64,000 bases of DNA, taken from NCBI GenBank assembly GCA_026929865.2, contig CM049402.1:13738001-13802000 (forward strand), in the 5' to 3' direction. Both the position numbers and the translations under genes were made by a program. Source of the stretch: Hyperoplus lanceolatus (lineage: Eukaryota > Chordata > Actinopteri > Uranoscopiformes > Ammodytidae). Positions 35,501-38,500 of this stretch are shown here, piece after piece. The notes below the pieces were generated by a model. The model was given only the letters and a program-made list of their open reading frames with translations. It did no database searches and was not told the DNA's origin. The stretch's first letter is position 1. Every line of letters starts with the position of its first letter.

Positions 35501-38500
35501 CAAGCGATACCGTTGGCCCTCTGAAAATGTGGGCAGTTGTCCACTTTTTTTCGGACAATTGATGGTCGAAAATAACAATTGATTAATGATGACAGACAAA
35601 CGAATAGCCTTATTTCCTTACTCTTCCCTTTACCCCTATATCCAGCTTTGGTTTTACAGAGAAGGGTTCAGGTAAGGCCAGCCAGCAGGCCATCGGCGTG
35701 TACGGCAACGGTTTCAAGTCCGGCTCCATGCGTCTGGGCCGCGACGCGCTCATCTTCACAAAGAACGGCGGCTGTCAGACGGTGGGGATGCTCTCTCAGA
35801 CCTACCTGCAAAACATCAAGGCCCAGGCTGTCATTGTCCCCATTGTCCCATTCAACCAACTAACCAATATCCTTTTTGAATGAGACATGGGAAGGAAAAA
35901 GTGTGTGTGTGTGTGTGTGTGTGTGTGTGTGTGTGTGTGTGTGTGTGTGTGTGTGTGTGTGTGTGTGTGTGTGTGTGTGTGTGTGTGTGTGTGTGTGTGT
36001 GTGTGTGTGTGTGTGTGTGTGTGTGTGTGTGTGTCTGCTTGTCTTGCCTGTCCTGTGGCATCTAGCTTACCACCTTAGACAGTATCGCAGAGGATGATTG
36101 GCCCGCGCATAGCTAATAGTCTTAGGTTTGTTTTACAGAAACAGCAAAGGTTTTATGCCATTTCCGTTCTGTAGGGGATTGTTTTGCAAAAGTTTTCCCC
36201 GGGCTTCATGGTGTTTGACATTTTGCTCAGAGTTAGGTTTCTGTGATTTTATTTGCATATAGACAAGCAAATACCTCCAGTTTCCCTGTCCCTACGAATG
36301 TATACGCAAAACAGAGATCTCCAAAATCTCCACTATTAGCAGAGGTTTCGTTGCTTTTGTTCGTTAAAACCCAAACCTTCTACGGCTTGCTCTCTGTGTG
36401 TTTGTATTTTGGGTCCCATCTGCTTCAACTGTGACATTTTTAACCATGCATGCTCATGTTGGTCTGGGGCCGTATTCACAAAACATTTTAAGGCTAAGAG
36501 TAGGTCCTAACATGCTGATTTAGGAGTTACTCTCAAAAATAAGGGGCGTTTCACTCCTAATTTTAGGACTCCTAACTTTTTAAGATAAGTGTAATTCACA
36601 AAGCATTTTAGCGCTAAAACTAGCTCCTAAATCTAGAAAAAGCTAGGAGTCCTCGAGAGGACTCCTAAGTCACGAGTCAAGAGTAAATCACAGACAACCA
36701 TTTGATGGTGTTTTGGAGAGATTTAATGCTAGTGAGCTTTATAAAAGGTACCTTTAATAGCTGTAAGGGTTTAATGATCTTAGTAAAGCTATATTTAGAA
36801 AGTATAGACACATTTATATTTATTATATTGTTATAAAAAAAATATTTATTAAGTTCATTTTCCTCCAGTTGCTTTGGGTTTATGATGCACTGAAAGTTAC
36901 TGTTGGTGTCACGTTTGGGTTTAATTTCCTACTAGAGTAGGCCTATATGTGGCGCTTCGCAGCATCTCCTCCGTTCCACAGATCCGCTACTGTATAGTTG
37001 CGCGTCTCGCCTTTTTCCTTCCGCATGTACTTTACGATTTCACCGGCTGTTGTTTCTAAATTGTGAATTTCCTGGTTTGTCGCTGTCTGACTATTGCTGC
37101 ATAGTCCGCCATTGAGATAAATACAGTGAGAGTGCATGGCGTGCAGCTGTTCAATGAGGATATTTTTCCGAATCAAATCATTGTAAAATTTAAAATGAAT
37201 AGACCTATGTGGCGCTATTGTAGGTTAATTGTGAACTAATGTGTGGGAAACCCTGCAGTATCTTGGTTTCATGTTAAATCAGTGTCACTTGTCATTAATT
37301 GTATATAAAAACTCTTTACTTTAATACAGCGACACGATATGGATATCTCCCACAGTGTTTCCATCATAAATTCACTCTTAGCTCTCATTCCCTCTCAGCC
37401 AATCACTGTGGGCATAAAAGGTATGAACATGACATCATCCATAGCAACAGGGTCAACACCGCCCTCTAGTCTTAGCTAAGGAGTCCCTCCCATTCCTTAG
37501 TAAAAGTTGGTCTTATCAGCTTTGTGAATAGGTTTTAAGAAATTACTCCTTACTAAGAACTTTTAGTGCTCCTTAGGAGTACTCTTAGCGCTAAGATAAA
37601 ATGTTTTATGAATACGGCCCCTGGACCTTAACTCAGCATTACAGTCTATGGTTGTGACTGAGGACTCTGACGCCAGCCTGGCAGCCATCCTCCAAAACTC
37701 AATCGTCAACTCCCAGGAGCAGATCCTTGCACACTTTGACTCCATCGTCTCCAAGAAAGGCACCAAGATATTAATCTGGAACATTCGCAGGTAAGAGGCT
37801 TCTTAGGCTGATTTTAGGGTGAAATTAGACATCTTTTTTCACTTGCAAAATAATTGCTTTCTTGTCTTGAGTCAAATGACTAATACCACGTTCATATATC
37901 TGTCCCATCAAACATGAACCGGCTGCTGCTGCCTGTAGCTGACATGCAGATACAAGAGCGTTCTCACTCTTGGCAAACAGCCAATAAGCTTATTTCCCTT
38001 AAAGTTGAAGGTCACACACAGATTCTGTGTGAATTTGTAGCTAGCTACATGTGTTGAACTTGCTGCATGCTTGTGAGACTGGTGATCATGCAAATACACA
38101 ACCAGGGACAGGCAAATGAGGGTGATCCGACACACATGATATTTGTTTGAGCATGCTTTTTAGTCAAATCAATGCAAAACAACACACATTCCAAAAACAA
38201 AAAACCCTTGTATGAAGAGAAGAGAACATTTCAGTCCAATGATGTGCACTCCCTTTCCCTTGTGAATTCATTAAGCAACCGTCACTAGACTCTAAGGGCG
38301 TGTTCACACCAGCTTTGTTTAGAGTGATTGAAACAAACCCTGGAGCGTTAAAGCCCTTGGTAGGGTTCATTTGGGTTGATTGGAACGCAGTCCGAGACTC
38401 TGGTGCACACTAAACAACCGGACCTCGCTCCGCTTGAAAGAGGTGGTCTTTTGCATAATGTCTTTCGTTGTCAGAGCATACGCCCATATGCTCCGCCACC

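Follow-up and report, generated by a model that had tools for sequence, protein, structure and literature searches.

Introduction

Mammals provide the closest described systems to the MORC gene analysed here. In the available excerpts of PMC8280824, MORC3 is the example of Figure 5A, with retention of both an AT-AC and a GT-AG intron upon CENATAC depletion or ZRSR2 mutation, and in RNA-seq of human cells the share of minor introns affected by CENATAC depletion was 92% for the A-type and 24% for the G-type. Mouse Morc4 is listed among the evolutionarily conserved U12-type introns in the excerpted part of PMC10853781. For fish, 662 zebrafish U12-type introns were considered in the excerpted Zrsr2 study (PMC9501576), the main text of which does not contain the word "morc", and our literature search found no paper on a MORC AT-AC intron in fish among the matches listed.

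Here we describe a 64,000-nt stretch of Hyperoplus lanceolatus DNA (hereafter, the window), in which an earlier sequence-only reading had proposed an AT-AC intron of the U12 class within a MORC gene. That reading had called AT-AC introns a small minority of the U12 class, which is overstated, as their share of that class is 22% in zebrafish, 26% in human and 12% in both Tetraodon and Takifugu (PMC7367187, table 2 as excerpted).

Results

The window carries a MORC3/MORC4-type gene on the forward strand (29583..45944), for which 11 exons from the ATG were assembled into a partial model based on frame, homology and domains, the exon borders being chosen manually according to the first two of these. 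The model has a stop-free frame of 1,367 nt. Its ATPase part (358 residues) contains the HATPase_c_3 and Morc6_S5 domains and, compared with solved-structure chains, scored 458.6 bits with MORC3 and 454.6 bits with MORC4 but only 165.5 bits with MORC2, so that both the domains and the nearest relatives are those of a MORC3/MORC4-type ATPase. In a five-row tree, one row of which is long, the window gene paired with MORC4 with a support of 99/98. Also in the window, exons resembling a methyltransferase gene, perhaps a phosphoethanolamine methyltransferase, were noted by reading upstream of MORC (about 24100-27210, forward strand), as were a long palindromic-repeat array around TGTGCTACCTAACACATAGGTAGC with poly-A/T spacers (about 25030-26370) and a Tc1/mariner-like stretch with matching inverted ends of about ctcaacaaaaatataaacgcaacac (about 32090-33690). 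The window yielded no Rfam match at the gathering score and no tRNA.

Nine of the ten introns in the partial model are GT-AG, and the only AT-AC intron is 35867-37642 (forward strand), the fourth from the ATG and in phase 1, as defined by its donor, its AC end and the exon junction. The upstream exon (35646..35866) closes with 10 residues plus an A, and the downstream exon (37643..37790) opens with AG followed by SMVVTEDS; the letters at the borders are CCA|ATATCCTTTTTG at 35867 and GACCTTAACTCAGCATTAC|AGTC at 37642. The donor, ATATCCTTT (35867..35875), has the form ATATCCTT sought in a U12-type AT-AC intron and agrees with RTATCCTTT at 9/9 positions. Close to the 3' end lies the branch-site-like GACCTTAAC (37624..37632), which matches TTCCTTRAY at 7/9 positions, retains a complete CCTTAAC core and places the branch A 11 nt from the intron end; such a (T)TCCTTRAY-like motif is a weak criterion when taken alone. 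The coordinates, donor, branch-like motif and terminal AC given in the sequence-only reading were all reproduced in the window. A pure (GT)67 tract (35901-36034) begins 34 nt past the first base of the intron.

We then considered how often such motifs occur by chance. A 9/9 U12 donor begins at 4 of the 9,528 AT dinucleotides on both strands of the window, and these four occurrences of RTATCCTTT compare with a shuffle mean of 1.23, a count of four being reached in 1 of 100 shuffles. The three further exact ATATCCTTT sites, at 8268 (+), 55100 (−) and 63959 (+), were taken as chance. CCTTRAY stands 8-20 nt upstream of 13 of the 8,032 AC dinucleotides in the window, and its total of 25 is fewer than the shuffle mean of 37. 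A branch match of at least 7/9 stands within the final 60 nt of 10 of the 15 introns of the window and C11 models (C11 being the contig of a paralogue described below), and a 9/9 match occurs even in a GT-AG intron of the C11 gene; since such matches are common among introns, the branch motif alone is weak evidence. The main weight falls on the donor and the AC, which sit exactly where two conserved MORC exons would have to meet.

A transposon-like 1,154-bp repeat with inverted ends (36467..37620), which the sequence-only reading had not mentioned, occupies 1,154 of the 1,776 nt of the intron. Its 25-nt inverted arms lie at about 36466-36490 and 37597-37621. Scoring 40 of 648 genome candidates revealed at least 39 other copies that are 96-97% identical over the first 294 bases, and the insertions look recent given this identity. 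Twenty copies, including that of the window, were taken, and both ends were visible in 15: CAG or CTG stands directly outside the element on the left in 12 of the 15 and on the right in all 15, a pattern that suggests a possible target duplication, although the two triplets agree in only 8 of those 12. The CWG flanks suggest that the repeat may be a non-autonomous PIF/Harbinger-type element. The repeat body stops at 37620, three bases short of the branch 9-mer at 37624, so that the element was inserted beside the branch site and spared it. The size, the proximity and the apparent recency of the insertion could be read as an addition to the U12-type interpretation, in which the element causes poor splicing and thereby a lineage-specific control of MORC in this fish. 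We regard such an effect as unlikely, because the donor, branch motif and AC are all intact despite the element, and long U12-type introns are common: the mean length of the ones that escape retention in zrsr2-mutant zebrafish is 3,556 bp in the excerpted part of PMC9501576.

The exon junction was examined with 300 donor × 250 acceptor positions, that is, 75,000 end pairs, each scored against MORC4. Joining the AT-AC ends produced a 14-residue junction peptide that aligns without gaps to MORC4 FNQQNKKMIITEDS (chain 7k7t). The AT-AC join had the top score, 411, in a tie with the one-base shift TA-CA; the junction supports terminal AT and AC as the best join of a canonical class, from which the TA-CA shift is indistinguishable by this measure. 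Several other non-canonical end pairs scored 405-407, including an AT-AG pair starting at ATCCTT (406), and the MORC4 score alone consequently discriminates little. The claim that the frame closes only with AT-AC ends was too strong, as 3,638 of the 75,000 end pairs also stay open in frame, whereas the accompanying claim that the adjacent AG leads to a stop was borne out by eye: joining 35866 to 37645 gives ACC ATC TAT GGT TGT GAC TGA. GT and AG dinucleotides do occur close by, and a conventional U2-type GT-AG intron with slightly shifted exon ends would use them; the best open join of this kind, 35844 to 37645, scored 362. We rejected these ends, and consider a GT-AG intron very improbable, since this join loses the conserved residues VPFNQLTK and leaves a perfect U12 donor unused at a conserved exon end.

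U2-type AT-AC introns have donors that look like ATAAGT. Removal of 35867-37642 as an AT-AC intron by the major spliceosome has precedent in the 85 human major AT-AC introns or related subtypes reported in the excerpted part of PMC8280824, but the 9/9 agreement of the donor with the U12 consensus makes it the least credible reading of all.

The genome contains one match each to U12 (130 bits) and U6atac (129.6 bits), both above the family cut-offs. The regions of the U12 and U6atac snRNAs that pair with introns served to place, by reading, TAAGGAAAA in the U12 gene and AAGGAGAGAA in the U6atac gene (reverse of the strand shown). TAAGGAAAA could pair with the CCTTA, and AAGGAGAGAA with the TCCTT, of the AT-AC intron. 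In the proposed mechanism, ATATCCTTT and CCTTAAC would be recognised by U11 and U12, U6atac would next take over the donor, and the intron would end at the AC lying 11 nt beyond the branch A. The 9/9 donor, the AC end, the gap-free junction and the presence of U12 and U6atac genes make the U12-type AT-AC class put forward in the sequence-only reading the best interpretation.

A search of the genome returned 16 matches in three genes: eight in the window gene, six in a gene on contig C11 and two in a gene on contig C3. The C11 gene is nearer MORC3 (427.9 bits) than MORC4 (348.3 bits), and the five-row tree placed it outside MORC3 + (window gene, MORC4) with a support of 92/97. In a comparison of the window gene with the C11 gene, the seven introns covered agree in order and phase. 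The C11 counterpart of the AT-AC intron (13363544-13363849, reverse strand) reads AGT|ATATCCTTTA ... GTCCTTAGC ... TTTAC and shares with the window intron its position, phase, donor 9-mer ATATCCTTT and AC end. It differs in its length of 306 nt, its branch motif GTCCTTAGC and an overlapping in-frame GT-AG pair, CAA|GTATAT ... CTCAG, in which ATATCCTTT follows just after the GT and the AC lies just before TCAG. Because this in-frame GT-AG join overlaps the AT-AC pair, the present class of the C11 intron is uncertain, and the intron is a candidate for conversion from the U12 to the U2 class. No homologous intron was found in the C3 gene, presumably MORC1-like, where the exon continues through the aligned position; the alignment is rough, with an identity of just 36-39%.

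At a second position, which had gone unmentioned in the sequence-only reading, the window gene has a U12-like GT-AG intron in phase 0 (44231..44623, forward strand), with the donor GTATCCTTAT (8/9) and a weak branch-like motif (6/9), for which a U2-type reading is possible. Across the 15 introns of the window and C11 models, donors of at least 8/9 occur only in the four introns at the two U12-like positions, the next best being 6/9. The C11 counterpart, GAG|GTATCATTTT, has a mutated donor that likewise scores 8/9, and its exon ends in AG. An exon-final AG is incompatible with U12-type splicing according to the excerpted part of PMC10853781, suggesting that this C11 copy is now probably U2-type.

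Discussion

Taken together, we assign a probability of about 94% to the reading in which 35867-37642 is a genuine U12-type AT-AC intron predating the split of the MORC3/MORC4-type paralogues, in a gene of that type that probably resembles MORC4. The intron is of a conserved, already documented kind rather than a new one, as mammalian relatives are reported with the same kind; nor is it special to this fish, since the C11 paralogue and, in the excerpts of PMC8280824, human MORC3 have it. Human MORC3 and the fish gene are both of the MORC3/MORC4 type and both have a minor intron of the AT-AC class, and the two introns presumably share a position (PMC8280824 for the human intron). Mouse Morc4 likewise shares with the fish gene a U12-type intron in a MORC4 gene, but the last two exon bases given for it in the excerpt of PMC10853781 are CG, which do not fit the CA at the fish AT-AC site and might match the second, GT-AG site. 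The present analysis contributes a second U12-like site in the gene, a comparison with the paralogue and the repeat inserted in the intron.

If the AT-AC intron stayed unspliced, translation would halt five codons into it, and poor minor splicing would then lower the amount of MORC protein. The predicted retention product gains five codons (NILFE) before a stop within the ATPase domain, and since retention puts the stop there, the output of MORC may fairly be expected to depend on the minor spliceosome. The intron-retaining message may in addition undergo decay. Actual splicing of the intron, use of the minor machinery and an effect on the MORC level are what we infer from these sequence features. 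For annotation, the intron matters because gene predictors restricted to GT-AG introns break the MORC gene.

We tentatively suggest, at somewhat less than even confidence, that MORC3/MORC4 genes hold an ancient pair of AT-AC and GT-AG minor introns, so that MORC dosage would report on minor-spliceosome activity twice over. In this view the pair is eroding in the C11 paralogue, with its altered donor at the second site and its overlapping GT-AG pair at the first, while in the window gene a recent transposon lies beside a branch site that it left intact. The two paralogues offer a small natural case in which U12-like sites are retained in one copy and appear to be eroding in the other. MORC is a chromatin-silencing ATPase gene with what looks like a rare type of intron that requires the second splicing machine of the cell, and the link between such an ATPase and minor-spliceosome activity, known from human cells, would extend to a fish.
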